A model generated the notes under the pieces. That model saw nothing but the letters and a program-made list of their open reading frames with translations. It had not been told where the DNA came from and did no database searches. Shown piece after piece: positions 22,070 through 47,508 of a DNA stretch of 64,000 nt. This DNA comes from Symbiodinium sp. CCMP2592. Taxonomy: Eukaryota > Sar > Dinophyceae > Suessiales > Symbiodiniaceae. The first letter of the stretch is position 1. Each line of letters starts with the position of its first letter. Both the position numbers and the translations under genes were made by a program. Location of the stretch: the NCBI GenBank assembly GCA_905221615.1, contig CAJNDT010003224.1, positions 21,001 through 85,000 of the forward strand, read 5' to 3'.

Positions 22070-22563
22070 TCAAACCATGCATCCCGTTCCGAAATCTCCT
22101 TTCCCCAAGCTGCAGGTCGAAGAGCAAAGAGGCCAAAACAGACTTCACGGAGGCCAAGGCCAAGTTCTGCTTGAAAGGCTCTGGGGGACCGTGGTCACCA
22201 GATTTTTTGGGGCTTGCAGGCTTGCAGAAACCAAAAAACACGGCTTGGCAGCTTCTGAGGCTTAGGCTTAGGGATATACCCCAGGAGCCAAGCCAAAGCT
22301 CAAAGCAATAACACCCTTTGAACCCTAGAGCCTACACAATTCCGAACCCCCGAGACCGCATACCTTCGTCGCCGCCCTTCGGTCTAAGACCACCACCTGC
22401 TGACGCTGAAACTTTCGGGCTGAAGTTCGGTAATTTGGACTCGCAAAAGATATTAGGGTTACGTTTTGGGGTCCAGCGACCTGGGGGTCGCGAAACTTTG
22501 CCCCAATGTGCACCACTTCTCCAGCACTGACCGGGGCCTTCGGGCCTTTTCTTGTTCTATGTG

Positions 22564-23435: not shown

Positions 23436-24320
23436 CTCCTGCCATCTCCCCCACCTCCTTGCTTCGGAACACGAACTTGTGGTACTTCTCCTGCGGTCTG
23501 ATACTATCTTCATGTTTAGGGCTTAGGGCTCCGAACCTGAGTGCAGGGTTTACGAGAGTTCTACGACCAAGCACCTGAGAAAACAACAGGTTCACCGCTA
23601 GGCCCCAAACCCATAAGCCCCGACCAGTTACTGAAACCCGCACATTCAATCCCTACAGCCCGAATGCCTATCCTTGCTTTGAAGGGTCACCTCCTTTTCC
23701 ATGTTAGAGTTCAGAGGCCCTTATTGAGCAACTTCGGACCTGGATCCTGCAAAGGGAGAACACGAGCGGGGAATGGACGACTAGCAATACTGAAAATCCA
23801 AGTGACGATAGATCAGTGCGTAGCTGAGAAGAAAACAAACTGTGGTGTTCACGACGGTGCAGACAAAAGCTCTCATGCTCATGAAGTATGGCTACTAGTC
23901 TTCGATCGGTCTCCCTTTCTGCTGAGCTTCTGACAGCCACAGAAAAACACTCTTGCATACGGGACTTGCCAACAAGAAGCTGCAGCCACGACAAAATGAG
24001 GCTTTAGGTGTAGTGTGCTTAGGGGTGCCTGCAGGCTCGAAATTTTTACAGCAAGGCGAAGAGCATGGGTCATCAGGTGTGGACAGCATGGGACAAGCTT
24101 CACGTCTGCTGCTTTGATTCGCCTCCCGCTTAGCAGAAAGCCAAGCAGTTCAAAACAATGACCATCCTGAAGCCTATATAAGTCCGGAATCTGGACTCTA
24201 AACACACGCAAGTCCCAACCCCGGCAATCTGGTCCTGACTGCTGCTCTCCAGCAACTGCGCGAGATGGTTGAGGTTCCGGACCTGCACCAAAAAGCCGTG
24301 AACATAAATGTCAATAATAA

Positions 24321-25897: not shown

Positions 25898-25929
25898 GGC
25901 AGCTGGAACCTGATGCTGCACTGCAGAAG

Positions 25930-26449: not shown

Positions 26450-29400
26450 TTTTTGGGACATTTGGAACAGCTCGCCCACCTTCTCACCATTGAAGGTCTC
26501 CAGAACCTGCCGAATCGCCCGAAATGTTGCAGCATATGCTTGTTCGTTTCGTGAAAGCTGTGTCTGTGACCATACCGGTCAGTAGCTGCACTGGTTTTGG
26601 TTCAGACTCTTATTTCTCTCTTCCTCATTATGACCACCTGCCTAGTTTTGATGTGTGGTCATCATTGCTGTGATGTATTTGCACGCAGACGAGCCGTAGA
26701 TGAAGAAAAGACAATGTTTACTAAAAGGTAACCTACTGTAGGTCGTGGAGAGAGCCTATTGTGTCCTGTTATGGTCGTCGAACCCTGATGCAGCCAGCTG
26801 TACTTGATTCATGTACTTATAAGCAATAACTGGCACCGCCGATATTAAGACTGTGAGCGCAGTAACATCGATACTGCGGCCAAAATTCTGCGTCAGCGTA
26901 AGTCGCCTGAACTATGGGAGACATGGGATGCTCCTGTTTATGGACATGCAGGCTTTGCCCGTCAGCAGTGTGATTGCGCACTGCCTCTGTGAAGCCAGAG
27001 CTATCACCATAAGCCCGAAAGCCCTAGACTCGCAAGGTCACACCAACTGCATGCAAAGCGGTATGCACGACAGAGTAGCTCGCCATTTTACGTGGGCGAA
27101 CGGCATCTGGATCCTTAACAGCGCACGACCCGAAGAGCAAAGAACCAGGTCTCAAGCATGAACCTAAGACCTAAACACGTAGCCCAGCACCTCAAACTCA
27201 AAATGCCTCATCCCAAACCATCTCAAACCGGAAGGATGTTCCGACGCCTCATTCTCCAAGTCGGAGTATCCCACCTCAAGTACTTGTTGGGGCACGGTGC
27301 AGGCCCATAACTTTCGGCGCAGATGGGCTGCGCAGGGCTGGAGGCGACAGGTTCGCAAAAGGTGGAGAGTGGATATGTGCGAGGTTTGGTCTCAGCTTGC
27401 TTGGGGTGCTGGAGGCATGGGATTGGCAGGGGAGTGAGGAGAGCATGTGGCTAGCGTGCCCGTCTTTCAGGCTTTACGAATGTCTCGGCGCACGCAAACA
27501 AAACAGGCCACCTTCATGTCCGAGATTGCAATGAAATAAGGGGCAGATCTAGGATCGTGCGAGGAAAACGGTTCCTAAACCTCAACACCCGCCCCCTAGA
27601 TACCGATGAATCCGACGACACATGTGAACTGCGAAGAACGGGCCGAGTGAGACGAGCAGCCGTCACCTCGCTGGCCAAGACCTGCTGCAAGGCTCCCGAT
27701 GTAAGAGTTTAGGGTTCAGCATTTGGGGCTCCTTATGCAGGTTCTGGACTTGGGGTCGGCTACCATACCCGAAATGAAGATGCATGCCAATGTATGTTCG
27801 TCTAGGTGAGGGTAGCATCCATGTCTACGATTCTGGGTGCTCGGCCTGCAAGACTGTATGGCCAACACCTGTAGGTGGTCGCTGTAGGAAGAGAACTCCT
27901 TGTTCCAGAGATACACGTAGTCGCGAATTACTTAGTTATAACCCAACAGACCCTGAACCCTAAACCTTATAACCCTTAAATCTTTGAGCTCTAGCCATGG
28001 CAAGTAAGTCACCTTGCGAATCTGGTTCTCCGCCATACAGTATCTAAATGTATCTAAGCCCAAACCGTTCTTTCCAATTAGTTCTCGAAACCTTCAACTG
28101 GACACTGTCTCCATAAACTCCGAACCTTAAGCCCCATGCGAAACCCGCCAGTCCCAAACTCAATCTACCAAGCCCAAATCCTTCTCGTCCAAACCGGTGC
28201 CCGTACAGGAAACCTCATCCCTAAACCCCCAGAGCCTATGAAACCACATGGGCTCCTGTGAAACCCACTAAGTATCACCGTCCCAAACAAACAAGAGACT
28301 AACAATCAGAATAACAAGCAAAAATCATAACAGTATCAATACTACTAACTGATCGGAATATTGAAAACAACTGCAACAATCACGAAGCTCGTTTCTTCAA
28401 GGAGCCTGGGTGAGGACCACGGGCTCCTGATCCGACTCCCTCGGTGCAATCTCTCGAAAGCTTTCCATGGACTTCTAGGGTTTCGGGTTTAGGTGTTCTT
28501 AACTCGCTGTTCAGGGTTGTTTGCATATGGACTCTAGGTCTCCAGGGCTTTGCTATGGTTCCTTCATGCGGGCCATTCTTCCGTGTTCGCAGGGCTCGGA
28601 CTCCAAGGCTTCAACGATTGAAAGTATTTAAGCAATCAGGGTCTCCGATGTCTGGAGTTTAGGAACCAAACCTGCAAGATCTGCTAAGTCGAACTCGCGC
28701 CCACTACCAAGACGCGGACGGACGAGCCCCAAACACGCTGACAATCCTGAAGCCCAAGTTAAGCCTGCGAGTGCGGTTTAGTTTCCGCGTTTGGCCTGGG
28801 CACTTAAAGCTTAAGAAACCTAAGCCCCAAGCGCCTAAGTGCCAAAGCCTAAACCTAAACCGAACCCCCCCCTCAAAAAACCACACATAATTACAATAAT
28901 AATAAGAAGAAGAATATTAATAACAATAAGAAATACAAAATAATCATAACAACAATATTAATAACTCACAACATTACGCCGAAAGCCCTCCGCCCTGGAG
29001 AGGCTCCGACTCCCGAGTGCCATTCTCCAGGAGATAGACCAGCCTCGGCCCGACCCGGCAATGTGGGAGTTTCTGAAAATCAGGGGTGTTGTCTTTTGGG
29101 GTCCTTTAAAGGGGTTACTACAAGTAATAAGGGTACTATAAGGGTTCTATAAAGGGTTTAGGGTTTAGAGTTTCTGAAAATTAGGGGTGTTGTCTTTTGG
29201 GGTCCTTTAAAGGGGTTACTACAAGTAATAAGGGTACTATAAGGGTTCTATAAAGGGTTTAGGGTTTAGAGTTTCTGAAAATTAGGGGTGTTGTCTTTTG
29301 GGGTCCTTTAAAGGGGTTACTACAAGTAATAAGGGTACTATAAGGGTTCTATAAAGGGTTTAGGGTTTAGAGTTTCTGAAAATTAGGGGTGTTGTGTTTT

Positions 29401-31391
29401 GGGGTCCTTGTAACAAGGATCCTACTATTTACGCTACTAAATTAGGGTTTCCTATTTTCGGAAACTACCATGTGGCGGACGACAGTTTAGAAGTGTATGG
29501 TTAGGCACGCTTTAGGGTTTAGGGCTTGACGGTTTTAGGATTTAAGGGTTTAGGGTTGAGGGATTAATGGTTTGAGGGTTTGGGGGACCAATAGCTTTGA
29601 GGTACGTCTTTTCTGATGGGAACCTTTAGAAGGTTGCTACAGGCTGTTGTGTTTGGGTGAGCAATGCGCTTACAGAGAGGACTTGCTGTAGGTCGACACG
29701 GACGGTGAAGCACTTCCCATTGCTGATTCTCGCATCTTCCAGGTTTCAGCTGTTGGGGGCTGCAGGCTGAGAGTTTGGAGTTTTGCTGTCGTGGGATCTT
29801 AGGGCTTAATAGTGCCTCGACAGTTCGCCCCGCAACCCTAAGCCACAAATCACAACCAAGAAATCCCTTCAACCGTGGGAAGCGAAGCGCGGACAAAAGG
29901 CCCGAATTTCTGTCTAAGCAAGAAGCAGCCTTAAGCTTTAGCCGCTTTAGGGTCTAGGTCTTGGGGAGATCGAAAACCTTGAAAGGAGAGCTGCAGGACC
30001 TCAAGTTTCTGCCTCTGCAGCTGTAGGATTCGGGTGGGGCAAAGGTTAACTCAGCAAATGCTCATCATCAAGTAGGGCATTTCAAGATATACAAAAATAG
30101 CAGCTCGAGGCAGTTCATTAACAAGATTAAGGTAGCTGCCCGTGAGAACCATGATCAGACACTGTAATGACGATGCTGCTGGTTGGGGCTACTCCTGTTC
30201 ATGATAAAAAAATCCTGCAGTACCTCAATGGCCCTAGACTATGGGAATTATGGTATATTCCTTATTATGGGTAATGCAGGATTTATATCATCAACCGTCG
30301 GTTGTTTTGTTCAATATTGTGTCGTGGGGCTCGGCCGTCATCTCCGATGGTCGCTTGTCTGCATAGTCCTCACGGAGCTGCCGCGGCCGCCGTAGGTGCT
30401 GGGAGATTGAAAGCTTCGAGGATCTACGGAGATTGAGGTTTGGCAGAGGCAGCAGGTTGCTTCAACAACTCTTCACACAGGCTGCGGAATAGTTGAGACC
30501 ATGCTTTTGAGCACCATCACTCGCCGCGCACAAGTTGCTCTCCAACTGAGCAGGCCACAAGATGCCAAGCCGAGGACTATACAAACACGAACCCGAATGA
30601 ATACCTGAACTGTACACGGCCTGACCGCCCAGGATTGAATCCCTCAATCCTCAAAAAAACGTCTACATGCTAAACCGTAAAACACGAACTCTAAAGTCAG
30701 ATCGCAAAAAAGCCTAAACCCGAAAAACCCACCACCCTAACCCCTCGGATTGAAGCGACCATAGTATTAGTACTAGTATTAATATCAGTATTAGTATTAG
30801 TATTAATATTAGTATTAGTACAAGCATTAATACTAGTATTGGCATTAGTATCAGTATTAAGGTGAAGTCCTCTCCGAAGGCAGCTTCCAGGAAAGGCTTC
30901 GTCAAGGGCACGAAGACGAGGCCTGAAACAAAGGTCCACGGTTCAGGGTCTGAGGTTGCGGGTTTAGAGTTTTGGGCTTAGAGTTTAAGTTTTGGGGTTT
31001 TCAGTTTAGGTTCAGGGTTTAGAGTTTAGGGTTGGGGTCCAAGGATTAGGGTCTCAGCAACTCAGATAAACATGCACCAGGGAGTTCGACGCAGTGCAGG
31101 AACGACTCACTTCAAGCCTTCTGCGGAGCAAACCTTCATGCGTGGCCATGGCTTGCAGCCATGGCCGAAAGCAACGACTGCCGAGCCCATCTTCGGGGGT
31201 TCCATCCGTATAAGGGAGTCCTGGAACTAAAGTAATGAACTGAAAAAGGAATGCAATGCATATGTGTACTACCTATGTCGTTTATGTGTATCATGTACGG
31301 TACAAGTTGTATTCTTTACTTCCAGAGTCTTGGAGGCCTCCTGCCACGATGTAGCGGGGTGCCGCAGAACCCGCAAAGGCGGCCGGGCCGC
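26450..31391 (-). CDS. Deg/HtrA gene: exons for the C-terminal (second PDZ-like) region
   Basis: Exons, minus strand: 31338-31391 (GPAAFAGSAAPRYIVAG, GC donor), 30870-30922 (LVFVPLTKPFLEAAFGE, GA donor assumed), 29674 to about 29712 (CFTVRVDLQQVLS, strong GT donor GTAAGC), 27661-27684 (QVLASEVT, GC donor), 27248-27274 (VGYSDLENE, GC donor), 26450-26506 (VLETFNGEKVGELFQMSQK, GT donor). The reading Y-I-V-A-G-G-L-V-F-x-P-L-T, then V-L-S-Q-V-L, G-Y-x-D-L-x-N and F-N-G-x-K-V-x-x-L follows the C-terminal region of Deg9-type proteases. The 24- and 27-nt microexons rest mainly on phase and similarity, so they are less certain than the catalytic exons. Linker residues between LEAAFGE and VRVDLQQ look too few, so an exon may be missing. 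Confidence 0.72.
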
Positions 31392-33729
31392 CTGCAGGGT
31401 TCCGGGGCTTGACAAAGGATTTATACTGCAGGGGCCTTGATACTTAGAATAGGGTATATCATGCTATAATTGTGATAAGGAGCCCTGAAAAGGGTTTAGA
31501 GGATTTCATAGGGGCTTGACAGGGCTCTGTTGACATAGGGTCATGGAAGAGCTTTAAAAGTTTCTTTTCTGGTCTCGTTATCGCAATGAAGGGCTGAGGG
31601 GCTTCGGGTTCAGGCTCTTGGCGCTACTAAGGCTCTTTCAACGGCATTGCGGGGGTCACCATGAGACTTTCTAAGGGCTCTATGAGGAGCTTTGGGGTTT
31701 AAGTCGTTTTGGTCTGGACCTGCAGTGGTCGGGTTAGGGCACCGGAAGGAGAAGAACTGCGATGTTGTCGGGCTCTGACTTAATGAACGCATGTTTTCAA
31801 TATTCTTGGGGCTTGAGTTTGCTGATTCAGAAGCCAATGCCGAATGGTCTTATGGGTTGGTTGAAGCATGCCATCGCTGCTAGAAGGGCATCCAGCAACA
31901 CTACCTCTCGGTGACTTTCATCTTCAAGTCTAAACGTTCTAAACCCTTCCCATGCCTGGTTTTGGACTTGATTTAGCTTCCCCACTAAGCCACAGAAATA
32001 AAAGGTTAGACTTTGCGGTTCCTACTAAACTGCAAGAACCCAAAAAGTTTGAAGGTTGGGTGTTGGGGATCTCAGTTGACCCAGGCTTATGGCGCAGGAA
32101 GGACAGCTTTACCCGCCTGCATCTGCAGCCACGAGATCGCGACAGCGAGACAGGCGGAACTGCCAAGAGCGGCCAAACGGAGGAGATCGTTAATTGGACA
32201 TTCACTACTTCAACCCCTAAGGTACAGCTAGCAATCCACAGCCGCTAGCGTCCACCTGTCTCAGTGCGAATGCAGGTTTGCGAAAAGCTGGAGGACTTGA
32301 GGAGCTAAAAGGCTACATGCAGCATTGTAGGGGGGCTCAGATTTCCCAGTAGAGTGGGGACTTAGCATCCGGACGTCAGACATCATCTTGTCCAAAAACC
32401 TAAACCCTAACCCCCAAACCCCACACACCAAACCCCACACTCCAAACCCTTACTAACCCCTAAACCTACACACCCTAGGCCCTGAATGTTCAAGCACCTG
32501 CTTCCCTGAGGGCCATGGACGCCCTAGGCCCGGCTACAGTAGCTGGGAGGTCTCTATCTCAGTGAAACAAAGCTCCAGATATCCTAGATGATTGAATCAA
32601 ATATGGCTAATTATGACTGGAGTCAATACAGGGCGAACTATGATTAGAGTATAGGGCTTGGGGGTACAATGTAGAGGTTAGGGTTGAAACCGCGCAAGAG
32701 GCTATGCGACGCCTTGAGAGACATCTTCTTCACGCCCTCCTCCTGGGCGCGAAGCACCTTTCGCCGTGGTGGGGGCCAGATTTAGGGTGTGGGTGCTGTT
32801 CTGGGGATGAAAGAAAGATGCCTAAATCTACTCGTCAATGTTTCATGGCAGGTGCTGCTATGTGTATTTTGCATGGGTACCACAAAGGTACGACAGAAGT
32901 TAACCGGGTTGTTGCGCGGGCGTCGCCAGCGTTTGACATTGGGACTGCTGGGTTCATTGAGGTTTCGTAAAGCTGTTTGTTAGAGGCTCTAGGTTTCAGG
33001 GATAAGGCTTTTCAGTTCATCAGTTGTAGGGTCCAGGGCTTAATTTAGGGCCCAAAGGCATGGTGCGAACATGAATTTCAGCAGCGGCTACTTTAAACTT
33101 GTGGAATACAGACGTACCCTGAGCAAGAACTTGGCTCCAATGCAATCGATTTGAAGAATCGTCTTCAGGAGTGTCGAAGTTCTAAGGCCCAGCTGAATGA
33201 AGGGAAAACGATGGTGGGAGAAAAGCCTTGCACCCAGAAACAGAAACTGGACAACACCACCCAGGGTGTGACAGGCACGAACGCTTCCGGCTTCTCCCGA
33301 ACTCCCGAGCTACCGGATCCGCAGTGCGGAGTCTTTGAAGCTGCTACGCTGGCTCAAGCGGGCGGAGGCAGAGGGGGGGAGGGGGGGGTGCGCCCTAGTG
33401 GCTGCAGACGCCTCTGATCTCCTCGAGTCGTTTCGGGAATTGGCTTGCAGGTGTTTTGCTTTTCACGGGCCGGCCCTGTTGCTACGAACTGAGTATGGGC
33501 CACCCTCATCCCCGAAACCCTAACCCCCTCAACGCGCTAATATGGATGTATGTATAGATATACATACATGGGTGTATATACACTATGTATAGATTGGATG
33601 GGTATAGACAGACAGATAGCAGATAGATAGATCGATCGATAGCTATAAGAACTCCAAAACGCCTTGCACAACCTCCGAACTCCTCTTGAAGCTCTTGCAC
33701 CCATCCTATACATATATATATATATGTAT

Positions 33730-33770
<41 letters not shown>

Positions 33771-36700
33771 GGAAACAGACAGATAGATACAGAAGAAAAA
33801 GAACACCAGAACGCTCTAGAAACCTCCGATCTCCTCTTGAAAGGCGTCGCCTGCAGCTCGCAGGACTCCCCGGGGAAGCGCTGGTTCAGCAAGTAGGCAA
33901 AGGGGATGCGGCCCCACCTGGGTCCAGATGTCCTTTAAGGGCTCCTTTAAGAAATAGGGGGCCTCCGTTTGGGGCTCCTTTAAGGGCTCCTTCAAGAAAT
34001 AGGGGCCTCCTTTCGGGGCTCCTTTAAGGGCGTTTTGGGGCTCCTTTAAGGGGTCCTTTGAAATAGGGGGCTCCTTTTACGGCTTCTTTAGGCACTGGTG
34101 GACGCGGGCATCTTTGTTTAATTCAAGGGTACCAGGCTAAATGGAGGGCATTCTAAGGCTTTACAGGGTTGGGTGGTATCTTGGAGGATTCTACAGGGGT
34201 ATAGTATGGTGTTCATCCAAAACCCTGCACAAAGTGCCAAAGCCCAAGCAAATGCCTGAGCCGAAACCCTAAAGAAATGAACCTTAAACCTCTGATGCCG
34301 AACCCTCAAGTCCCAATCCCTGCACCGTAAGTCCCCCCCCCCAACTCCTGAAACTCGACCCTCAAACAAATTCCCTCTAGATGCCCCAACACAGGAAAGG
34401 TACTTAACGTGCACTCCAGTCCTTACGAGCTGTACGTCTCGCGTTGAAGCGAAAGCCTTCGGTATGGGGATCTGTAAGTTCCAAGCTCTGTAGATCCGGC
34501 AGGTTTAGGACACCTACTACACATAAATGTCTTTCAATATGGAATTGACCCCAAGTCACTGCTACGCCCGCATGGGACTCCCACGGCATCGCCACTTCCC
34601 CGTCATTGCCAACCTGGAAACGGCAAGCTTCTGGCAGGAGCATCACTCCGTGCTCTTTGGGGGTTTAGGGAGTTTAAGGACCAGCCCTAAGGGTCCATGT
34701 ACCCAAATAGTACACACTTTGGCCCCGAAGTACCTATATAGGGACTACTTTAAGGCCAAAGTATATACTGTTTGGGCACACGGACCCTTAGGGCAGGGCA
34801 TTGGGATTCTAAGAGGGTTGCAGGTTTCCGGCGCGGCTACTCTAAGGTTAAAAAAACTCGGGGCCTCGGGGTCACAGCATGCCTGAGGGTTCAGCGTAAG
34901 CTTCCACACTTTGAGGGGTGCAAAGGATTCAAGCTGTCGTGAAAGATCATGGCCTCTGCATACCATGACTATGGGGGGCATTAAATACTAGTGAAGTAAT
35001 CGTATCTGGAAATCTGGGGAATTGAATCGTATACAGCTGCTACTCACCAACGATTCAGACCCCCACAATGATCACAAACGAAATGGCTGTGAAGTATTCT
35101 TCCCTGCTTCAGTGTGGCTGCATGATGAAGAGAGCCTGTAGGGCCTGGAGTGACGAATGTGCGCTTCCAGGTTTCCCAGAGTTTATGTGGCGTCACGTTT
35201 GATAAGAGTCGAAATCACAACCCCCCAGAGCATATGGTTGAAGCCCTTTCGGGCGCCTTGCGTCCATCCACACTGAGCACCACATCGTCAGGCAGCAGCA
35301 GGCCGTGAGCCGGGCTGGCCGGCTCCACGCACTGAGGCAAGGCTCCAGGCTCTGGCTTTTTGTTCGCATCTGTGGCTTTGTGGGTCTCAGCACGGGCAGG
35401 GGCAAGATTTTGAATTTCAGGTGTTTGAGGGACTCGGATTTGAGGGGTTTCGGTTCCTGTAAGTATGCTAAATCCCAAGTCCTGTAAACCCAAGCCCCCT
35501 AAACCCTACATGGCCCCTACATCCTCTAAACCCTAAGCCCCGGAACCCTTAACCCTCTCTTGCTTTGAATTCAGGTCTCAAGCGCAGGACTTCGCATGTA
35601 GAAGGCCGGGAGGTTCGGGGACTTGGGCTTCGGATTCAGGGTCTATGTAGAGCTGAAACGATTTGCATTGTCTTGTAGCCTTTATCTGGGTGGTCGTCGA
35701 AATTATGGTCCCTTGTTGGATAATTACCCTAAATATTAGGTGCCGGTATAAGAATAAGACCCGGATATTGACAACCACCCATCTATAGTCTCCAATGTAG
35801 CTGCTTGTTGTTGCCTGGTGTCTGGACTAGGGGCACTGCTACAAGTTGGCCGACCAAGAAAAGCAACCACATTGGAGACTGAAAGTGGGGGTTTACAGGG
35901 TTTGCAGGAGCAGAGCTTCAGGGCGACTCGCGCCTCCGTGTTCCGGGCTAGGGCGACGCGGCCTCGCGCCTAAACCCAAAGCCCTTAGCTAAAACATACC
36001 CAACCCAAAGAAACCCAAGCGCAAAAAAAACCCTTTGAAGCCTCTGGGGCTGTGTTTGTCGTTTCTTCTGCTGTTGGCGGAAGATCATCTGGCTTACTGG
36101 GATCCTTTGGGTTCGGACTCGTGACAGAGGTTTTGTTAGGACTCAGCTTTTTGTATTTTTTTGGAGTTAGTGATTAGGTCTTGTAGCTTTCTTTGTTTAT
36201 TAACGGGCTGGTCATTAGGTCCTGTGCTTTTTGTATGCATTCAGGGATAAGCTTGGGGCATCGTTTGTTGTTCTTCCTCGAGGCGCTTCCATGATCAATC
36301 CGGAGCCCCGGCCCTGAAAACAAGAACCGGGCCTTCCGACAAGCCGAAGCAAGCAAAACCTGGGCTACTTAATTTCAGTAAACCCAAAAACTCTTCAGGC
36401 CTACGCCGCGAAACCTCAAATGCCAGACTCTTAAAGCTTGAGCCCCGGAGATCTCCACCCGAGACCCCAAAGCCCCAGCACCCGAAACTCCAAAGCCCAT
36501 ACCGTGTACCAGAAACCATTTCGCAAATCTCCACCACGCTCTGAATCTCTAGGCTTCGGAACTTCACGGCTCTCGTAAGTATCCTCGAACTGCCTTCTTG
36601 GTTTAGGGGCTTAAGAGTCCGTAGGATTCGGCAGGACGTTCCAAATCCCGACGTGCCTTGATCCGGACGCCAGACCTGGCTCAACAAAAAGTGTTGCCTG

Positions 36701-39700
36701 CATACGCTTTCTTGGGGGTTTCTGATAGGGTGCAAATGAGTGCTGATTGGAAGTCGCACAATCCGATACTCCAAGAGTCAACAAAATCATGCTGGATCGT
36801 GCCTGCAATCAGTCAGGGCCGCGCTGCTACCAACCCCGAACCAAGCAGTCAAAGAAGCCCTGGGGCCCTCGCTGCGTCTTCGTCATACCCAGCGCTTGCC
36901 GGAGCACCGGGGACTCCAGGCCCTGGCAGGAATTCTGGGTTGCCCTGATTCCATAAGACTCTGAAACAGCGAAAGCAACCCTCCATCCTGAAATGCTCAA
37001 ACGCCACAAAAGCCCCGAAACCTGCACCTGCTTCGCCAGAGGGCTTGAAGCATTGTCTAGGAGCCCAAAAGGCATATATGCACGTGTGTGTATATAACTG
37101 TACAACGGACCGTGATCGCACGACATCATGCAGGCCTGCATCTACATAGTGCACCTTCCAGAAACTGAAGAAGGAATACGATGTGCGCATAGGCGTATAG
37201 ATTGCAAGTGCATCTATCAAATGTTTGTGATGCGTAATCGTGCATCTGTCGCACGTATCTACTATGAGCGTGAATGTATGCATACTCGCCACGACAACAC
37301 ACACACACATCTCTGTCTCTCTCTCTCTCTCTCTCTGTCTCTCTATCTCTATCTCTCTTCCGTCAGGTACATGCATACAGTTACACGTACAGCATCTGCT
37401 CACATATCTGTCGTCAGAGACCACACACATGCTTGACAGGGACCCTGGCCTGGGTGAGAATGCCCGCGCTTCCGAAACCGGTGAAGCAACCATTCCTCAG
37501 AAGCGTCGGACTCGTCGGCTTTCGAGTGAAACTTCGGGGTAGCCCGGCTTTCGTTGCCTGGCTTCGAGGCCTTGGGTCAAAGAGCCAGAGAAAGACCATC
37601 ATCTTGAAGATTTTGACTAGGAAGTCTTGAATGAGAAGCATCGCTTTGTTCATGTCAGTGCAGTACGGTGTCCTGGGACCTTTAGTAATTGCTACCTTGA
37701 ACAATGGAGCTGGTGAGGACGTTGGTCATTTCTGATACCGTGTAGTCGCGCATTGTGAAAGCACGTGCAGTCCGAGCTCATATCTATAGATCGGGGAAAC
37801 AGCTGAGATCCGGCTTCGGCGTCCATTGTAATTCGAAAACCCAAAGCACGCCCTATCTAAAACACGCTATTCAAAATGATCTCCGATGCTCCATTCTGCA
37901 CGATGCCTTGGCACCCCGGCCGCCTGTAGTCCTCCAGAAAATGCCGGACGATCTCCGTCGGAATAATGTATCCTGGGCTTGTAAGCAAAAGGTCCTTTCG
38001 GGTCAGGGCCTGTATGACCTTTTCTTCTCTGCGGGCCAGGACTCTGAGGTTTAGGATTCAGGGCTTATGACCAAATCTTCTAGGGCCTGGATTTAGACGG
38101 GGGGCTTTGAAGGGCAGATCTGCAGGGCAGCTCTGCACTGATGATTTGAAGCTTCAGCTTCCAATCAGAAGCCTTCGCAAGGGGAGCAAGGCCTCAAGCC
38201 GGCAATGCAAGGACTAAAGCCGAAACAAGAAGTCAACCTTAAGCCTTAAACCCGACATCACAAAGAAACCTCAGCCCTGAGCTGTCACTGCGACGAGGCT
38301 CCGATGTTCTCTGCACCATCTTCGTCAGAGGCGTCAAGGTTCTGAAAGGCAACGCCGACACCTGGGATTTGGAGTTCTGGTCCTGGCACCGTGCCACGGT
38401 CTTGGATGACGGGGTCAGCGAGCATCCGATGCCTTCGGCCCTGAAGCTTGAAATGTGTTCCGGTTTCACCATTGCAGGTCTCACCCGCCAATCTTCAACT
38501 GCCGACCTCAAAAAAGCCAGGTGACACAAACCTCCAAGCCCACAGTGCGTGTTCAAGATTTCGGGTGTAGGTTGCAAGGCTGGTCAACGCTTTTGAGGTT
38601 GGAGTTCAAAGGAATCCTCGGACCCGAATTGATTCGATCCAAAATTTGAGGATTCAAAACGGACCACGGATGCAAGAAATTCATCATCCACAGTCCCGGG
38701 TCTCACAGTGGTAGTGCCAAAAACCGTCATCCAAATCTCCTGAAGCCTTAGAACCGACCAGTATTTGCGGGTTCCGTACTGAGGCATCCCTGGATCCCTG
38801 CGGGATCCTCCCTGCCTGGTCCAGTGATCTAGTTTCTCTAGCTGCCGTTTGGGAGTTATATATATATATATATGTATATATATACACATACATATTATAT
38901 ATCTATCTATCTGTCTGTCTATCAATCTATCAGTCTATCTATCTATCTATCTATCTATATATATATATATATATAATGCATTCCATAAAGCGGTTCCCTT
39001 CGCTTCCTAATCCAAATTGGACACAAGAATCGGGCGTCCAAGCAAGCCCACATCCCCGCCAAAGCCGGCCAAAAGGCAGTTGCCCTTGGAGTCCACCACA
39101 GGACCCCCGCTGTTGCCACTATTGATGGCCTCGACTTCTTCAGCGTTTTGCAACTCACATGTAGAGCCCACTGCAATGAAGAAAACAACGATGCATGCAC
39201 AACACTTTCCTGTCTTCTCCAGTGTCCGGGCCCAATAAAGTTCAAACTTTCCATCATAGGCCAGATATATAAGGCAAAACAGTTCAAATTTCTCCCATTC
39301 CATAAGTAATGGGCTTCCATCACTTTGGTTATGGCTTCGAGACGGAGTGAAAGTCAGGGTTGGATGTCGCACTGTCTGGTCTGAGGATTCGTCTTGGCCA
39401 CGATGTCTGCTGACACTACACTATGATGCCATTGTCTTCCTCTCGCATTCCAGCCGCCCTCGAAAGCACTACAGCAGACCTGTGGAAACATCTCGCACAC
39501 CAACGAGGGCTCCTGAAACAAAGCAACTATCAACTGGCATCTATGACCAATCATCACCAGACCTGCGCCTGGAGCTGACCAAACAGAGATGTATACAAAG
39601 GCAGTTCTACGGAGTTGGGATCAGTGGGTAAGACGGCTGAATCGTAAGCTCCAGGCTGCGTCGATCTGGACCTCCGGAGAGTAAGACACGCTTCCCTACC

Positions 39701-42700
39701 GTCCCTACAGTCACACTTCCTCAGGGTGGGACAGCGTAGCTGCCCAGCCGCTCGGTTTCAGCATTACTCCAAGCTTCCGGAATCCACCCTACCTGCAATG
39801 TACGACTAGCCTTGACATTGAAAGGATACATTTTCTTTCTGATAGAAGCCTTGGTCATTGTATGACAATCGGACCAGGACTAAAACAAGCCAGGCTGAAA
39901 CATGAAGCTCGGGATGCTTCAAGGACTTGCGTTGGAGAAATCGGAGGCCAGAACGATGATCAGAATCGGCCTGCTATAGGCGCCTTGATCATGAATTAGA
40001 ATGGGGTTTCGGGGCAGATTATACTAGAACTATAATAAGGAACCCTAGGAATGATATTGGTAATTATTTTGGCCCCTGTATTAAGACTTCAAGCAAGCAA
40101 AGCCGGGACTTGTCACACGCATCGAAGTCTTTAAGGAAGGAAGTGAATTCGGACCCGGCTTCGTGCCAGGCTTGGCTTATAAGCGCAGTATACGTAGCCG
40201 GTGCTCGAAGGCAGTGGCTCACTACTCCCACTGGGCTTCCAGGCAAGCCGAGAGAACTAAACATGCCCCACAATAAACAACGAGTGATGACGCTTTGAAG
40301 AGGTCCCTTAAGTAGGGTTTTCGGGCTCTGAATCCCAAGAAGGCTATCAAGCCCTGAGATAAGAAGTCGTTTATCACTATGCCATGGAACACCGTACGGT
40401 AGCAAACCCGATAAACCTTGATAGAGAGATCCACCGAAACTCCCTGGGAAAGTTCGTGCGCTAGCCTACACCCTAAACCCACGACGCTCCCAGGAGAACG
40501 AGGCGCAGGCAGCCAGCAATGTCACCCCGGTTTGGGCATACCTCACTCACAAGCGAAACCCAGAAATCCAATGAAAGCTAACAATAACAAACCCAGCACC
40601 ATAATCAACCCTATGCCCTCAAACCCCACAACTGAAAAACCTGAAAGCCCTTTGCAGGTCCCTGGGACTGCTTCAGCTTTCAGGGTCTAGGGCTTAAGGC
40701 ATCGAAGATTGCTCCGAAAGAAGTAAGCGAGAGATCCGGGGATTGCAGCCCTTGTCAGTCCTCTGGCTCTAGCCGCTCTAGCCGCTTGCACACAATAAAG
40801 GGTATGTATGTATGGATGGATGGATATATGGATGTATGTGGCACAGCCACACAATAGAAACAGGTACAGTAGAAGTGAACATGCAACTAAAGGTGTAGAT
40901 CGATATTTGCATATACTTGGCCTGAAAAACTCTATGCTCAAGCCTTACGAAGCTGGAAAGCAACGATCAATTTTGATCAGCGGCTCTACCAGATCAATCC
41001 TGGAGACCACGCCCACTGTGACCTGCAGCAGATGTGTTGCAGGAAGTCTGCGATTGAAGCTACTTCGCTAAACTCTAGACTCGACATGTGAAACCTCCTG
41101 TTCCTTCCGCTGCTCCCACTATCCAAAATGTAAGGAATTCAAGAAGAACTCCCGAAACGAGTTCCTTCCTCCCCTCCCACCCCTTCAACAATCTGCAGCA
41201 TAGTCACCGACAGGCTTTCACCTCCTGTTGGGTAGCCCACCACAGAGACACTATCCTGTCCACGGCGCAGGTTCTCGAATACTGCTAATATAGGAGCCTT
41301 AATAGTTAGAATAGGGTTTTGGGGCCCACTACACTAACCCAAGCAGGGCTATCAGGCAGGGTTTGCAACAAAAAAGGAGCCACGGGTGATCTACGTGGGG
41401 TGAAGGTCTGTGAGACTTGAGTGTCCTTTTGTTATCAAACCCGTTGACGATAAGGCACGGGAAGAAGGAGCAGCAGGAGGAGGACAAGGACTAGGAGAGT
41501 GACCCATGATACGACATATTCATGCGCTTGTATTGTAGTCCTAACCTACGGTCTGCAATGGGTCGAGCAAACTCCGAACAGTAAGTTGAGGATCAGCTCT
41601 GACCATGGAGGCTGAGGGTGCAGGAGTAAACCATAGCATCTCTTTCTCGGCAGGTTCGGGGATGCTTGAAGTTTTTCGCTGCAAAAGAACGCTTGTGTGG
41701 ACATATATACTCCGACGGATTAGGTAACTGTCCTAACTGCGTTGCATGCTTGAAGGCGACCCTCAGCCCCAAAGCCACTCAAATCCAAAGGCCCAAGCCC
41801 AAACAGCAACGGCTTATCCAAAACGGGCCTGGTCAAGGCTTGGTACTTGTGGCCAAATTCCGCCCTACCCTAATCTCCGCCCCAACTTAAAACTCCACTC
41901 TGCCCAAACACGTAGCCCCAAACCCCAAACCTTGAACTCCAGAAACCAAACCGCCCTAAACCCCAAACCCCAGACTCTGGACCCTAGATCTTAAACCCTA
42001 AGCCCCTACTTCCAAAATCCAACCCTTTTACTGTAGGGGCCTTCATAAATATAATAGGGTTTTGATGATACTATATCATAACTATAGTAAGGAACCCCCA
42101 AAACCCTGTTCTAATTGTTAAGGTCCCTACATTAACCCCCACAGTAGCCCTTACAGAAACCCTTATAGACCCTTTTACAAGAACCCTTTAAAGGAAACCT
42201 ACTCTCTGGGCCTGAAGCTTCGGAAGTCCTGGAAGGATATCCAGCGGCTCTAGGCCCTGCAATTCTGCAGCGAAAGGGCATCAAGGCTCTCGTTCTTGTA
42301 GGCTTTTGCAGGGGTTTGCTATGGTTGGTTTCGGGGCTTGAGGTTTGCATGGGGTTTACGGTTTATAGGATTTTGTAGGAGTTTGTTGTCGGTTGAGGGC
42401 TTTGTGGGTTCGTAGAGATGTTGCACAGCACACATTAGAGGTCCCTTACTTACGGGGCATCCATGCTTAGACGCAGCAGCCTGCTGTTTGGGGTCTACCC
42501 TGGGGTCTTGCATTGCCTGGAACTCCAGTATACGCCTCAGGGCTTCGAGGCAGTCGTTGCTTCCGAGAGTGTGTCATACGCAATGGGCTGCACTGGAGGA
42601 CTGCGAAGACTTATCTGGCTTGAAGCCCATGACTTTCGAGTTGGCTGCAAAGCTTCTCAAGACTGCTTGGCATTTGTACCGCCCCGCCACGAGAGGGAAC

Positions 42701-44272
42701 CAGTGTGCTCCAGCTGGCCAGTGAAGTCTGAAAGGCTACCTCTTATGTCCAAGCAAGACATTGAAACAGGGCTGCGGGTGTATGTCTACAATAGAAATAT
42801 GGGCGTACTATGCATTGAACCCGCATCCCGAGCATGCACTTGCCTTCCAGAACTCATCACTGGGCACGTCCAAAAGGGCCAGGTCGCAATCCGGACCCAC
42901 GCAGAGTACCTGCTAAGGCTCTATAGTCTAGAACTGTTTATCCTGAATGTAAAGGAACCTGCGCAGGGACCTACTTTGCTTGATGAGCTTGGGACACTGT
43001 GTATCGTAGTGCAGCGATTTCATGTCATGTCACGAATGTCGGGGTCACCAAGGAAATTGCAATGACTACCCGCCGACAAAACATGAAGTAAGGCAGACTG
43101 CCCTATATCCGACATTCTGAGGCAACGGCCTTTGCAACGTACTTCTTCTCGTGGCGATGTCTCTTCACCTGTTCGCAGGACACGTGTCGGTGTTGCATCC
43201 CTCGAAAATAATCACCAGCAAGTCTCAAACCTCTGATGCTCCTCGACGCACCCTCGCTACAAGGGTGTCATCCAACGTATGCTGAAGATGTTAAACCTCG
43301 GAAAACACATGAAGAGCGATGCCCCCCCGACGTCGCATTGGCAATTCTTGTTCTGCGCACAGCTACTGTACTGGTCTGTCAGAACTGTCATTCACCGTCA
43401 GCTGGTCGATGTGAATGCTGGCAACGGTTAACTACCAATTGAATGACAGAACTTGGGAAGAAAGCACAGACCAACTCCCAATGTGTCCGGAACCGAATGG
43501 CTGGAAAAGACAAAGCCAGCCTGGACCAGCGCCGCGTGCTCAACAGAATGTGCGTTTGTCACGACCTTCGGAAGCCGTAAACAATACAAGTTCCGATAAC
43601 GCATATGTACATGCTTGTCTATGGGTTTACGGTTTACGGGTGGATGATTATCTTGCTCGACATGGTGAGACTTGGGCGGACGCAATCGTACTGTATGCAT
43701 ATATATACACACACACACACATTCGTGTATGCATGTATGTATGTATGTATGTACGTATGTATGTATGTATGTATTCATGCATGCATGTCTCTCCCTCGTC
43801 TATATATATATATATGTACACACATACACCTACACGCACACTCCACACAGTACAAGAACTCGTTGTACGGTAGGTAGCTACTCATCTAGGTAGGTAGATA
43901 AGGTGGTACATAGCGAACAAACTGGAAGTCTACGAATATGCAGATGTAGATCGATGCATGACATGGCTTGGAGAAGCTTCGTGTCAATGGCAAAGCCGCC
44001 GCACAAACCTGATACCTTCTCTAATGGCAGACATGCGCAGTCAAGAACCTTCAGGACCCCTTTTAAAAACCCTGGCCAGAGACTCCGGCTCGCAGGGAAC
44101 CATCGTCCAGGCGCACGGGCCAGGCGGATGAAGTTGACCTTTGATCGTCTTGTGGTCTCATTTTGCTTCATAGTCTACAAGTATTCATTCGGTTCATGTA
44201 CCTGCGTATGCATACACAATATACATGTCAGTGCTTAGACAACCCGATTGGTAACAGACCGGCCGACGGAGG

Positions 44273-44303
<31 letters not shown>

Positions 44304-44534
44304 CGACAGACAGACAGACAGACGGACAGACGGACAACACAGACAGACAATACAGACAGAGAGAAAGATGTGCTGTGCTGTTTCTCGTCTAAACTACTCG
44401 TTTCAGCCTTATCAGCATATCTCTTGATGCATCTCTCTGTGCATGTTGTGTACGTATGGGTATATACCACTGAAGATTGACTGTGGCAGGCGAAACGCTC
44501 TGTCTGTCTCGCTCTCGCTCTCTCTCTCTGTCCG

Positions 44535-44569
<35 letters not shown>

Positions 44570-44570
44570 T

Positions 44571-44618
<48 letters not shown>

Positions 44619-46940
44619 TCTCTCAGTCACTTGCGATGCAGGGCAGCAATGACAGTCACCTGGAGCTATTCAGGATCCTCCTTTAGCTCTGGTGGATCTT
44701 GAAGATCTGACTTTGCTGCGGCCTGTGTCAACAGAAACAGGACTGAAAGTAACTTGGGGGACATAACATCCTGGCCCTGGACCCTTCGCCCCAAAACCTT
44801 AACCAAGGTCCACAAATATAGATCGCTATTTTGCAATAGAGTTTGGTGTTTTGTCGTACTGGAAATGTTGCAATTAAGGCCCGTACAATGCCGTACAACA
44901 GCTCTGAAAAAGGCTCAAGGGACGTTGGCGAGTGAAAGACTGAAAGCACCCTAGGGCCAACAAAGCAAGAAAACCAACAATCAATCAAACATTGCCCAGC
45001 ACGTAAACTACTAAGAAAACTCAGAGCACGGTGCGCACATTATTCATGGACACACAAACCTCAGACATACAGAGAGCAATCGAATGCAACCGTCAATAAA
45101 CATAAACAAAGCCCAAACAACGAAACTGAGATGGAAAGAGAGAGCGAGAGAGCGGGACAGCGATGGCAAGACAACCAGAACCGACTTGATGCGACAGATT
45201 GTACAGCGAGAAAGCACATCATGCAACACACCTGCACGATGCATCCCCTTGAAAGGGGTTTATAAGGGTTCCTATAAAGAATCTATATATAGTAAGGGTA
45301 TTATGTAGGAACCGCTTTCTCCCATGGCTCCCGGCGAGGTCTGCGCATCCGAACACCAGGGCTGAGAGTAGTTCGGCTTCACATGGGAGACGAAGACCTC
45401 GAGGTTGAACCCAACTGCCGGGCTCTTCTGAGCTTCGCAGGATGCTCCACGGCGTTGCTGGCGTTTGTTCTAGCAGTTTTAAACGGCCGTTCTAGAGTTT
45501 CTGCAGGGTTTAGATAAAAGAGTTTTCTACAGGCTTTAGAATCTAGGGACTGGGGAATTTGATTGTCTGGATGTCGAGGGGCTAGCAAGGGTCCAGTAGT
45601 TCAGGATTCCTATAGCTGGCTAAACAAGATTCCTAATCTTTAGGGCCAAAACTGCTGGCTTCACAGACAGAAACATACCCTAGGGCTGTTAAACACTTAG
45701 GCCTCATAGGGGTCGTGTGCTTGGGCATTTTAGAGCTAAGAAACTTAGGCCTTGTAGGGCTTGTATACTTCTACCTTATGTAGGTGCTTCAGTGGCAAAG
45801 CTGGGCAAAGTGTACACTACATCTGCACATGGACCCTTACAATTCAAAAGGGCCGGCCTTCAGTACGGAGTTGTGCACGTCCTTGGACAGGGACAGCGCA
45901 TTCTTAAGTCCCGAGCTGAGGAGCCCACGAGTCTCGCTGACCCAGGGCTTTGGGGTTGAGGTTAAGGGGCATTTAGGTATAACCACGTTTGTACTGGTCT
46001 GGGACCTGCGGCCGGAGCAGTGAATGGCATGAACTTATAGATAAAGCGGAGTTTGCCGACATTCAACTTCAGAGCTGCAGGATTATTCATATTGCTGCTC
46101 TGCTCTCACTGCTCCCACGCACGACCTTGAGAGGTAGCAGGTTAGTCATCTTCTTGATGTCTTCTTGTCGCATGTCTTCCCTTCTGAGCGTCGCTCCGGC
46201 TGTGTCACTTCGCGCATTGAGGGAGTTTTGTGCACTGGGGAGACATATTTTGTTAATGGTAGGAATATCCATGATTGGATTAACATCTTTATCTTCAATA
46301 TCAAGAATGCTTTTAATCATACAATATACCAAGTATTACAAGGCTGCAGCCTGCCGGGCTTGAGGGTTTCGCAGGGTTGGGCTTCAGGGTTTTTGGATCC
46401 CAAACCCAAAAGCCCTAAGACTTGGAAACTTGCCGGCTGAGGAGAAGTTCAGCTCAACCTTTAGGGGTCCGATGGAGCTCGGCACACAGTAAATGCCTCA
46501 TGCATGGTCCGCGGTTGACTCAAGACCTGAATTCCCCATGATGCGTCCACACGAGGATGGTGAGATTTAATTTTGCTTCTTAAATCCCAAACCCTGCACC
46601 CTCTAATTACACATCTACCCCAAAGAGCCAGTGTAATGCTGGGACCTGGCTGCGAGTCCATGAATGGGATTTCTACGAATCGCAACCGGAATCCGAACTG
46701 CGACCGACTGGCGTTCAAGCTCAATCGCCGACGCCGTTTCGCCACCACAGGTGCCTGAGGAGAACTGCTGGCACAACCGGAAATAGCATTGTGAGCCGCA
46801 AGGCTCGGAGATCGTTGAGAACACGGTTCTCATCCTGCAAGTGCCTAAACGCTACAGAAGCCTCAAGCCCTAACACCTCATACCCTTTCAAAACACTGAC
46901 AGCGGAGTCTGAGTCCACGATCCTCCCAACCAAATTACCA

Positions 46941-46999
<59 letters not shown>

Positions 47000-47508
47000 G
47001 CGTCCTTATTCAAGCAGCGACGGATTCTGGTAGGTATCCAACAAGGGAGCCGACTGCAGCCAAGCAGAGCCCAGAGGAGCATTCTTATCCTCACACCCTC
47101 AAGTTGCAGCGAACATCTTTCAAGGGAGTCCCGGCGCTGATCATCCTATGATTCAACTCTGTGGGGCTGCAGATAGCACCGAGACAGCAGAGAGTTGAGG
47201 GTTCGGGATCCAAATTTCGGGCTTAGCAGGCGGACCTCTTGGACCCGAAAAGAATCTGCCTCCCAAACCTTGATCCTAAATCTCCCATACCTTTAAGAAA
47301 CCCCGAACCCTGTCAACACAAGCTAGAATCCTAAACCTCCTGCAAAACCTGATGCCTTTAAACCCCACTGTTGCCCAAATATGGAAACGAACTCTACTTT
47401 TTGCAGCTTAACATTTTCAAATCCGGCTTTGTAGCGAACCTTACGACGCCTTACAACTGAGGCATCCCCGGCCTTCTGCACCTTCTTGACAGGAGCCGCC
47501 TCCGCGTC
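26450..47508 (-). CDS. Deg/HtrA-type serine protease with PDZ domains; multi-exon gene (incomplete at both ends)
   Basis: A trypsin-fold protease of the Deg/HtrA family reconstructed on the minus strand from small exons. In gene order the pieces read: pre-protease PWVSETRGLLSSG, His motif VVTNAHSVEH, Asp motif PDCDLALLDV, oxyanion region DSVSVVGYPTGG and VTVGVVSRIDL, nucleophile motif INSGNSGGPVV, then GVAFQNL, YIIPTEIVRHFL, a PDZ domain (CVEPASPAHGLLLPDDVV) and a second PDZ-like region (VGYSDLENE, VLETFNGEK). The order and spacing follow the family, closest in my judgement to plant Deg9-like proteases with two PDZ domains. Such enzymes degrade or refold damaged proteins; the compartment is unknown because the N-terminus was not found. 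Almost all neighbouring exons join in phase. Missing: the first exon(s), one exon between 40990 and 39170, probably one between 30870 and 29712, and the C-terminal end. The triad is intact, so an active enzyme is likely if the gene is expressed. Confidence 0.85.
28880..28975. repeat. A-rich AAT/AAG low-complexity tract
   Basis: Irregular AAT, AAG and ACAAT units within a protease intron. A similar unlinked tract is at 28300-28380. Confidence 0.7.
29067..29471. mobile_element. Family F inverted-repeat element with its left arm amplified in 101-base tandem units
   Basis: The arm GAGTTTCTGAAAATTAGGGG starts at 29067, 29168, 29269 and 29370, so the unit is 101 bases. Each of the first three units ends in AAAGGGTTTAGGGTTTA, a telomere-like spacer. 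The fourth unit continues into a right arm ending CCTATTTTCGGAAAC, the complement of the left arm. It lies in an intron of the protease gene. Confidence 0.75.
30199..30299. mobile_element. Inverted-repeat element, family B (third copy)
   Basis: Right end AGGATTTATATCATCAACCG intact; left end shortened (TTCATGATAAAAAAATCCTG). Core GACTATGGGAATTATGGTAT as in the other copies. Inside a protease intron. Confidence 0.65.
30758..30862. repeat. ATTAGT-type hexanucleotide array with internal symmetry
   Basis: About 16 units of ATTAGT and variants (ACTAGT, ATCAGT, ATTAAT). Several variants are self-complementary, so the array can pair with itself. It sits in the intron directly downstream of the 30870-30922 exon. 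Confidence 0.8.
32691..36922 (-). CDS. Deg/HtrA gene: exons for the first PDZ domain and following linker
   Basis: Exons, minus strand: 36889-36922 (GLESPVLRQAL, GT donor), 36313-36359 (FACFGLSEGPVLVFR, GC donor), 35257-35331 (CVEPASPAHGLLLPDDVV then LSVDGRK, the PDZ carboxylate-binding core, GC donor), 34585-34613 (VGNDGEVAM, GT donor), 33851-33917 (WGRIPFAYLLNQRFPGESCE then LQ, GC donor), 32691-32757 (VLRAQEEGVKKMSLKASHSL then LR, GT donor). Every junction keeps frame with AG acceptors. P-A-x-x-x-L-x-P-D-D-V-V-L-S-V-D-G is the classical Deg/HtrA PDZ signature; such domains bind C-termini and control protease activity. Confidence 0.87.
33711..33768. repeat. TA microsatellite in a protease intron
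   Basis: About 27 TA units with TATG/TACA interruptions. A duplicated sequence of about 50 bases flanks it (33647-33700 and 33797-33850). Confidence 0.85.
33930..34100. repeat. Local direct repeats of GGCTCCTTTAAG type
   Basis: Five or six copies of GGGCTCCTTTAAGGGCTCCT or part of it, alternating with AAATAGGGGGC. Within the intron upstream of exon 33851-33917. Confidence 0.7.
34687..34793. mobile_element. Inverted-repeat element, family I
   Basis: Arms AAGGGTCCATGTACCCAAAT and GTTTGGGCACACGGACCCTT are near-complements, followed inward by matching TACACACTTTGGCC and GGCCAAAGTATATA. A single arm of this type is at about 45800-45842. Inside a protease intron. Confidence 0.6.
35688..35781. mobile_element. 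Inverted-repeat element, family A (third, diverged copy)
   Basis: Ends GGGTGGTCGTCGAAATTATG and ATTGACAACCACCC pair imperfectly; the core differs from the other copies. Inside a protease intron. Confidence 0.5.
37296..37358. repeat. CA then CT microsatellite
   Basis: ACACAC units grade into about 20 CT units with single changes, in the intron upstream (minus strand) of exon 36889-36922. Confidence 0.85.
37450..39170 (-). CDS. Deg/HtrA gene: exons with the catalytic serine and end of the protease domain
   Basis: Exons, minus strand: 39084-39170 (STCELQNAEEVEAINSGNSG and the GPVVDSK end; nucleophile Ser in GNSGGP; GC donor), 38302-38361 (VGVAFQNLDASDEDGAENI, GA donor), 37915-37972 (YIIPTEIVRHFLEDYRRP, GT donor), 37450-37495 (NGCFTGFGSAGILTQ, GC donor). 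Joins are phase 1, phase 1 and phase 2 and each restores a Gly codon at the junction, which strongly supports the boundaries. The 39084 exon is preceded by a pyrimidine-rich acceptor (TTTTCTTCATTGCAG). It needs one base from an exon not yet found between it and 40990. Confidence 0.88.
38856..38976. repeat. TA and CTAT microsatellites
   Basis: A TA run, then about 15 CTAT/CTGT units, then another TA run, in the intron just downstream of the catalytic-serine exon. Confidence 0.9.
39975..40081. mobile_element. Inverted-repeat element, family E (second copy)
   Basis: Arms TATAGGCGCCTTGATCATGA and TAATTATTTTGGCCCCTGTA; core TATAATAAGGAACCC. Inside a protease intron. Confidence 0.6.
40990..45947 (-). 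CDS. Deg/HtrA gene: exons for the N-terminal half of the protease domain
   Basis: Exons, minus strand, in gene order: 45911-45947 (PWVSETRGLLSS, GA donor), 43968-44008 (LCGGFAIDTKLLQ, GC donor), 43521-43565 (VVTNAHSVEHAALVQ, catalytic His, GC donor), 43130-43168 (VKRHRHEKKYVAK, GC donor), 42844-42909 (catalytic Asp in CDLALL, ending DEFWK, GC donor with GCAAGT), 41208-41255 (DSVSVVGYPTGGESLS, GT donor), 40990-41022 (VTVGVVSRIDL, GT donor). All neighbouring pairs join without frame change. A weak candidate for the short piece between DEFWK and DSVSV is 42508-42542 (LRRILEFQAMQ), which fits in phase if DEFWK uses a GT donor four bases further on. A 200-codon plus-strand frame covering the Asp exon is a shadow of this gene. 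Confidence 0.85.
41287..41335. mobile_element. Single arm of a family E element, adjoining an exon
   Basis: Only the left arm is present (TATAGGAGCCTTAATAGTTA then GAATAGGGTTTTGGGGCCC). It lies about 30 bases from the acceptor of the exon at 41208-41255, so it occupies the 3' end of that intron on the minus strand. Confidence 0.6.
42033..42131. mobile_element. Inverted-repeat element, family E (third copy)
   Basis: Arms GTAGGGGCCTTCATAAATAT and GTTCTAATTGTTAAGGTCCC; core TAGTAAGGAACCCCC. Inside a protease intron. Confidence 0.65.
43702..43820. repeat. CA, GTAT and TA microsatellites
   Basis: Compound simple sequence: CA units, about eleven GTAT units, then TA units, between the His exon and the preceding exon of the protease. 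Confidence 0.9.
44272..44346. repeat. CAGA tetranucleotide microsatellite
   Basis: About 18 CAGA-type units with CCGA and CGGA variants, in the protease intron upstream of exon 43968-44008. Confidence 0.9.
44505..44626. repeat. CT microsatellite
   Basis: About 50 CT units with a few interruptions. It produces Ser-Leu frames that are not genes. Confidence 0.92.
46942..46994. repeat. CT microsatellite
   Basis: About 26 uninterrupted CT units. The minus-strand frame is Arg-Glu repeats, not coding. Confidence 0.92.
47455..47508 (-). CDS. Tentative upstream exon of the Deg/HtrA gene (linker)
   Basis: After CTGAG the minus strand reads DAEAAPVKKVQKAGDASV and then meets a strong GT donor (GTT then GTAAGG) in phase 0. 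A Lys-rich linker ending in S-V-V-K just before the protease fold is usual in this family, and the next recognised exon (45911-45947) starts in phase 0. No direct motif proves membership, and an intervening exon for the V-K-V-type strand is missing. Confidence 0.35.

Follow-up and report, generated by a model that had tools for sequence, protein, structure and literature searches.

The locus and its exon-intron structure

The window, meaning the whole stretch of 64,000 nucleotides analysed here, carries on its minus strand a predicted gene for a DEG2/DEG9-type Deg/HtrA serine protease, of which 30 exons were kept, running from 45881 to 21408 (about 24,000 bases; Table 1). The kept exons are very small, with a median of 45.5 nt and a mean of 44.0 nt (range 15-75 nt); 20 of the 30 measure 51 nt or less and six measure 27 nt or less. 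Introns span 185-2197 nt where both borders could be placed, with a median of 578 nt in one model. Twenty consecutive exons (43565 to 30870) join into an open frame of 314 codons without a stop, and eight further exons (28439 to 21408) join into an open frame closed by a stop codon a few codons past the C-terminus of the family, the remaining two frames of this second block containing stops. No start codon was found for the gene as a whole.

The 29 donors in the kept list comprise 20 GC, five GT and four GA sites, as read by an aligner whose starting model favoured these three dinucleotides and permitted others. All 29 acceptors end in AG, which was obligatory in the model, and 28 of them are followed by G. 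The stretches 45330-43566 and 30869-28440, whose exons are candidates only, are bordered by two of these donors and two of these acceptors. Pieces at 47514/47508, 45184, 44797, 34009, 28671 and 30368-30336 were left out of the 30; the last of these was excluded because its border varies between profiles, despite having no equal-scoring match in control DNA. Two candidates were dropped: the 3-nt exon 34009-34007 of the automatic model, superfluous once the preceding exon reaches 34579, and the piece at 47508, a weak match with five equals in 300 kb, the N-terminal pieces differing from run to run.

A first-pass annotation of this DNA had chained more than 20 minus-strand exons into a single Deg/HtrA gene at 26450..47508. 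Most of that interval stands, but the 3′ end lies about 5 kb further on, at 21408, with four extra exons at 24.3-21.4 kb, and the part between 47.5 and 45.9 kb is without solid support. The exon sizes it gave, 24-87 nt, become 15-75 nt, and the introns, put at 250 nt to over 2 kb, begin at the somewhat shorter length given above.

Table 1. Exons and candidate segments of the protease gene, in order of transcription. 'Both models' denotes the bacteria-only and the wider-profile models; control matches were counted in 300 kb of control DNA.
Feature	Position	Strand	Support and remarks
Exon DVHNSVLK, first conserved residues	45858..45881	-	0 equal-scoring control matches
Exon VFVSHVKPNYSQPWCSDAQTSP	45331..45397	-	Wider-profile model; 3′ border 45331 or 45336, depending on profile
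Candidate exon(s), TGSGFxI..R segment	43566..45330	-	45184-45168 + 44797-44783 (12 and 8 equals in control), or 44138-44115 + 44015-44000; profiles disagree
Exon VVTNAHSVEHAALVQ, TNAH, catalytic His	43521..43565	-	Both models, joined frame
Exon VKRHRHEKKYVAK	43130..43168	-	Both models
Exon VLCVGPDCDLALLDVPSDEFWK, CDLALL, catalytic Asp	42844..42909	-	Both models, joined frame
Exon GLEPLDILPGLPKLQ	42212..42256	-	Both models; weaker alone, ungapped part with 3 control matches
Exon DSVSVVGYPTGGESLS	41208..41255	-	Both models
Exon VTVGVVSRIDLV	40985..41022	-	Both models
Exon EYAQTGVTLLA	40511..40541	-	Both models
15-nt exon VQIDA	39657..39671	-	Both models; 0 control matches
Exon AINSGNSGGPVVDSKGN, GNSGG, catalytic Ser	39078..39129	-	Both models, joined frame
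Exon CVGVAFQNLDASDEDGAENI	38302..38361	-	Both models
Exon GYIIPTEIVRHFLEDY, protease domain end	37924..37972	-	Both models; eukaryote-only profile sets border at 37921
Exon RNGCFTGFGSAGILTQ	37450..37495	-	Both models
Exon GLESPVLRQALGMTKT	36873..36922	-	Both models
19-nt exon QSGVRIK	36657..36675	-	Both models
Exon CVEPASPAHGLLLPDDVVLSVDGRK, first PDZ domain	35257..35331	-	Both models, Pfam
Exon VGNDGEVAMPWE	34579..34613	-	Border placed by hand
Exon WGRIPFAYLLNQRFPGESCELQ	33851..33917	-	Both models, joined frame
Exon VLRAQEEGVKKMSLKASH	32703..32757	-	Three-gene splice-weight parse, wider-profile model
Exon SGPAAFAGSAAPRYIVAG	31338..31391	-	Three-gene splice-weight parse, wider-profile model
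Exon GLVFVPLTKPFLEAAFGE, within PDZ_3 domain	30870..30922	-	Wider-profile model, Pfam
Segment with candidate exons	28440..30869	-	Likely exon at about 30368-30336; then 28671-28646, or extension from 28471, uncertain
Exon (R)ESDQEPVVLTQ	28406..28439	-	Wider-profile model; 5′ border 28439 or 28471
21-nt exon VLASEVT	27661..27681	-	Wider-profile model
27-nt exon VGYSDLENE	27248..27274	-	Wider-profile model
27-nt exon VLETFNGEK	26480..26506	-	Wider-profile model
Exon VRNLNHLAQLLESSSQ, beyond the first-pass limits	24235..24282	-	Wider-profile model, collinearity run
Exon EKYHKFVFRSKE, beyond the first-pass limits	23455..23490	-	Wider-profile model, collinearity run
Exon VVVLDRRAATK, beyond the first-pass limits	22364..22396	-	Wider-profile model, collinearity run
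Last exon ALPSILSQNMIPAPRSPLL and stop codon	21408..21467	-	Collinearity run, joined frame

Other features of the window and assembly

An intronless 359-aa PPR-type ORF (24842..25921, minus strand), whose start, MATQHRVGCMLFLALL, resembles a signal sequence by eye, is nested in the protease intron 26479-24283 on the same strand and is not part of the protease. On the plus strand, three consecutive ORFs occupy 60896-62378; the first matches C-5 cytosine DNA methylase (7.7e-6), the other two are without a Pfam match, and together they may represent a split or element-borne methyltransferase. A minus-strand ORF at 10156-10557 gives weak ankyrin-repeat matches.

Repeated DNA is also present. The introns 30335-28671, 23454-22396 and 22363-21467 contain dispersed repeats of about 100 bp that recur elsewhere in the genome at 77-92% identity, a tandem array at 29067-29409 consists of 3.4 copies of a 101-bp repeat, and degenerate telomere-like AAACCCT/TTTAGGG repeats are scattered through the window (e.g. 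11282-11372, 13687-13810 and 51660-51788). Searches of the window with Rfam (at gathering scores) and ARAGORN returned nothing. For the spliced-leader relic that marks retrocopies, the 14-base leader end was found twice in the window with up to three mismatches, against 8.1 occurrences expected by chance. Elsewhere in the assembly, a contig of 2.96 Mb (C5051) bears uninterrupted HtrA-type and gcvP genes and is probably an associated bacterium.

Evidence for the exon chain

The chain was recovered with a purpose-written spliced profile aligner that permits introns in all three phases. Its profile was built from 37 bacterial DEG9-like proteins (the first 44 of 80 bacterial loci were taken, and the 37 of these 44 with a protein of 380-620 aa were used). 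The DEG9 family was chosen since hand-picked window pieces had matched Arabidopsis DEG9, and the profile sequences themselves are external to the window. Taken alone, the first hand-picked pieces match Arabidopsis DEG9 at 2.7e-29, several of these by-eye pieces having later been replaced. With the bacteria-only profile, the minus strand of the target scored 143.7 nats against 6.1-9.9 nats for 18 control stretches, namely the opposite strand, other window parts, six other contig regions on each strand, and a paralogue region on a single strand. Under a stiffer intron cost the target still scored 80.3 nats, with 11 introns and recovering profile positions 68-287 only, and the controls 4.5-8.6. 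In a second run the borders of two paralogues supplied the splice weights, and the profile was widened by plant and paralogue sequences; the target then reached 243.3 against 8.7-15.1 for 15 controls, with a slight leak in that these paralogue borders had themselves come from a parse weighted by all three genes. The bacteria-only model yields mostly the same exons as the wider-profile model.

Lax splice rules might let any 20-kb stretch give in-order short matches to a protease family. The exons are indeed short and the donors lax, and weak single exons do arise by chance: of the 34 exons scored in the wider-profile model, five are equalled somewhere in 300 kb of control DNA and the other 29 are not. 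The control stretches nevertheless fall far short of the target in both runs, and when the order of blocks cut at intron midpoints was shuffled, the score dropped from 243.3 to 47.9-87.1 (15 shuffles), and to 37.1 when the order was reversed. Chance chaining was rejected on these grounds, its probability being negligible. Joining of neighbouring exons in phase, which the first-pass annotation had noted for almost every pair, also held: when each border was moved, irrespective of frame, to the best donor or acceptor lying no more than 9 nt from the modelled one, 25 of 27 joins were in phase, compared with 1332 of 3876 at random sites, in a test that leans towards the model because it is centred on sites that the model itself picked in phase.

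Family identity of the predicted product

Against Pfam, the joined product matches Trypsin_2 at 77.9 bits (cut-off 27.6), covering all 144 positions, followed by a first PDZ domain (PDZ_6 32.1 bits and PDZ_2 27.2 bits, both with a cut-off of 27) and a C-terminal PDZ_3 match at 137.1 bits (cut-off 22.8; positions 8-143 of 145). The exons with the catalytic His, Asp and Ser are all present, so that the full triad and the PDZ domain proposed at first pass are both borne out, as is the expectation that the joined product would find its family.

Among the best 60 of 103 PDB matches, DEG9 (3.5e-120) and DEG2 (4.7e-115) lead over about 460 residues, the next family being DegQ at 2.2e-17; these E-values are partly circular, plant sequences being also in the profile behind the final borders, a circularity from which the bacteria-only model and the first hand-picked pieces are free. 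Within the same best 60 of 103, full-length DEG2/DEG9 chains score 388-408 bits against 66 for DegQ. Identity to plant DEG9 is 44.6% and to DEG2 46.9% over about 450 residues. In a tree of 42 rows, the window gene groups with plant DEG2/DEG9 and the two paralogues described below (100/97), and with the plants at 97/83, with a program warning that the window gene and the C2924 paralogue are long branches meeting. No NCBIfam HtrA-type model, all of them bacterial, was reached at its cut-off by the joined product (best, degP_htrA_DO, 122.5 of 416.2 bits). By these partly circular comparisons, the predicted product appears closer to DEG2/DEG9 than to DegP, DegQ or HTRA1/2.

Paralogues and their intron positions

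Two further DEG2/DEG9-type genes are present in the assembly, at C2924:666131-677951 (+) and C102:619082-640827 (+). Their regions were first flagged by protein search and then modelled with the bacteria-only spliced profile, giving 24 exons with a median of 50 nt for C2924 and 27 exons with a median of 40 nt for C102. The two paralogues thus share family and tiny-exon style with the window gene, but their intron positions mostly differ. Between the window gene (25 positions) and C102 (26), four identical positions are shared where 0.61 are expected (P 0.0015); between the window gene (34) and C2924 (22), one is shared (0.56 expected), and between C2924 and C102 none (0.41 expected). When positions within 6 nt are counted, no pair gives a clear excess over chance (P 0.21 to 0.78). 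The sets contain uncertain exons, and misplaced borders would reduce the shared counts.

High intron turnover in dinoflagellates is described in the part of a review drawn on here (PMC11453091), and the few positions shared among the DEG copies fit with it. The three copies may have been cut up largely independently, with most introns gained or relocated once the copies had diverged, a tentative reading to which we give somewhat less than even odds. If it is true, a single gene family preserves a record of introns repeatedly approaching saturation, leaving exons as short as 15 nt. Introner-type introns found no support in a small comparison of this gene's introns plus about 236 kb of other DNA from the 1.1-Gb genome: no end-to-end intron repeats were seen there, the 40 strongest blastn matches listed being all internal (66-144 bp), and a perfect terminal inverted match of 9 occurred in one of 33 introns (null 4%).

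The host genome and published gene architecture

The genome contains 429 exact copies of the spliced leader (the reversed pattern, 0) and 143 matches to PCP, which had none in 14 control genomes; it is therefore taken as that of a peridinin dinoflagellate. Together with a window G+C of about 50% and the donor usage, this points to a Symbiodinium-type species. For S. microadriaticum, the portions of the literature used here give a mean exon of 109.5 bp, 21.8 exons per gene and GC/GT/GA donors (PMC5177918), and a median exon of 51 bp, a median intron of 231 bp and 74% GC|GA-AG introns (PMC7789003). The same portions put the median exon of S. microadriaticum and S. minutum at 51 and 53 bp; genes of the two have about 21-22 exons each, and their introns average about 500 bp (PMC5177918, PMC7789003). 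Table columns in PMC7789003 were matched to species by G+C and size values agreeing with PMC5177918. For F. kawagutii, the table lists a median exon of 81 bp, with 4.07 exons per gene (PMC7789003), so the tiny-exon style has not been reported throughout the group.

Other genes of the same genome were also considered. On contig C780, gcvP appears to be split in a similar way, being represented by nine collinear matches of 23-35 residues each, lengths that approximate exon lengths only; E exceeds 1 for two of these matches, and one match contains two stops. Eight of them span 50 kb, and the ninth, which would stretch the span to 85 kb, has an E of 4.14 and is equalled by a match on another contig. 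Many PCP genes, by contrast, form one open frame across all 145 positions, so not every gene of the genome is split. Literature searches returned nothing on the point by title for dinoflagellate microexons, and no Symbiodinium or Symbiodiniaceae paper among the matches listed for Symbiodinium DegP/HtrA or exon size.

Interpretation

We read the locus, with a probability of about 0.93, as a nuclear gene of the ordinary kind, belonging to a Symbiodinium-type dinoflagellate and predicted to encode a Deg/HtrA serine protease of the DEG2/DEG9 type that carries two PDZ-type domains in its C-terminal part. Exon order, strand, phase, splice-type borders, catalytic triad, domains and stop are shown by the sequence. 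One long pre-mRNA would be transcribed and then cis-spliced by a dinoflagellate spliceosome accepting GC and GA donors, and a spliced leader would be added in trans, as in other dinoflagellate mRNAs. Plant DEG relatives are ATP-independent proteases, and by analogy with them the product is predicted to be one as well.

The exons might instead be what is left of a formerly active gene that is now neither expressed nor spliced, given that the genome holds two other split copies and that part of the N-terminal half is without placed exons. Such decay is improbable: 28 joined exons run without a stop before the last codon and close with a regular stop where proteins of the family end, the splice borders and the three catalytic residues are all retained, and the identity to plant DEG9 and DEG2 is that reported above. 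Marginally less probable again is a distribution of the exons over at least two transcription units, for instance with those lying 3′ of the nested PPR ORF forming a unit of their own, or their joining in trans. Dinoflagellates do trans-splice a leader, and four 3′ exons lie beyond that same-strand intronless ORF (24842-25921), yet these four exons carry the same domain on in phase and finish at the family's C-terminus.

On the preferred reading of a single, ordinary nuclear gene, the first-pass chaining was good: the gene is real, and its architecture is ordinary and known. The first pass held that ORF-based annotation would miss the gene, and a domain scan indeed does not see it: searching the six-frame translated genome with Trypsin_2 gave 17 matches, none of them in the window, whereas the spliced search with a bacteria-only profile recovered the gene. 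Genes of this kind can thus escape domain searches run on raw dinoflagellate DNA. The rarity implied by the first pass does not survive, since the two published Symbiodinium genomes are similar in median exon size and the two paralogues in the assembly are split likewise. Chopping into tiny exons looks normal for such algae, and this gene style has already been published for Symbiodinium. As a case of splicing, the locus adds a clear example of a 15-nt exon and no new principle.

Comparison with known systems

Arabidopsis DEG9 (PDB 5il9) and DEG2 (4fln) likewise consist of a protease domain with the triad, a PDZ domain and then PDZ_3, and match the predicted product along its length; unlike them, the window gene is divided into many tiny exons with GC/GA donors. 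Set beside S. microadriaticum and S. minutum, it is alike in having a median exon of about 50 nt and, for S. microadriaticum, in its donors and acceptors, with slightly smaller exons (45.5 nt) than either and longer introns than S. microadriaticum (578 versus 231 bp).
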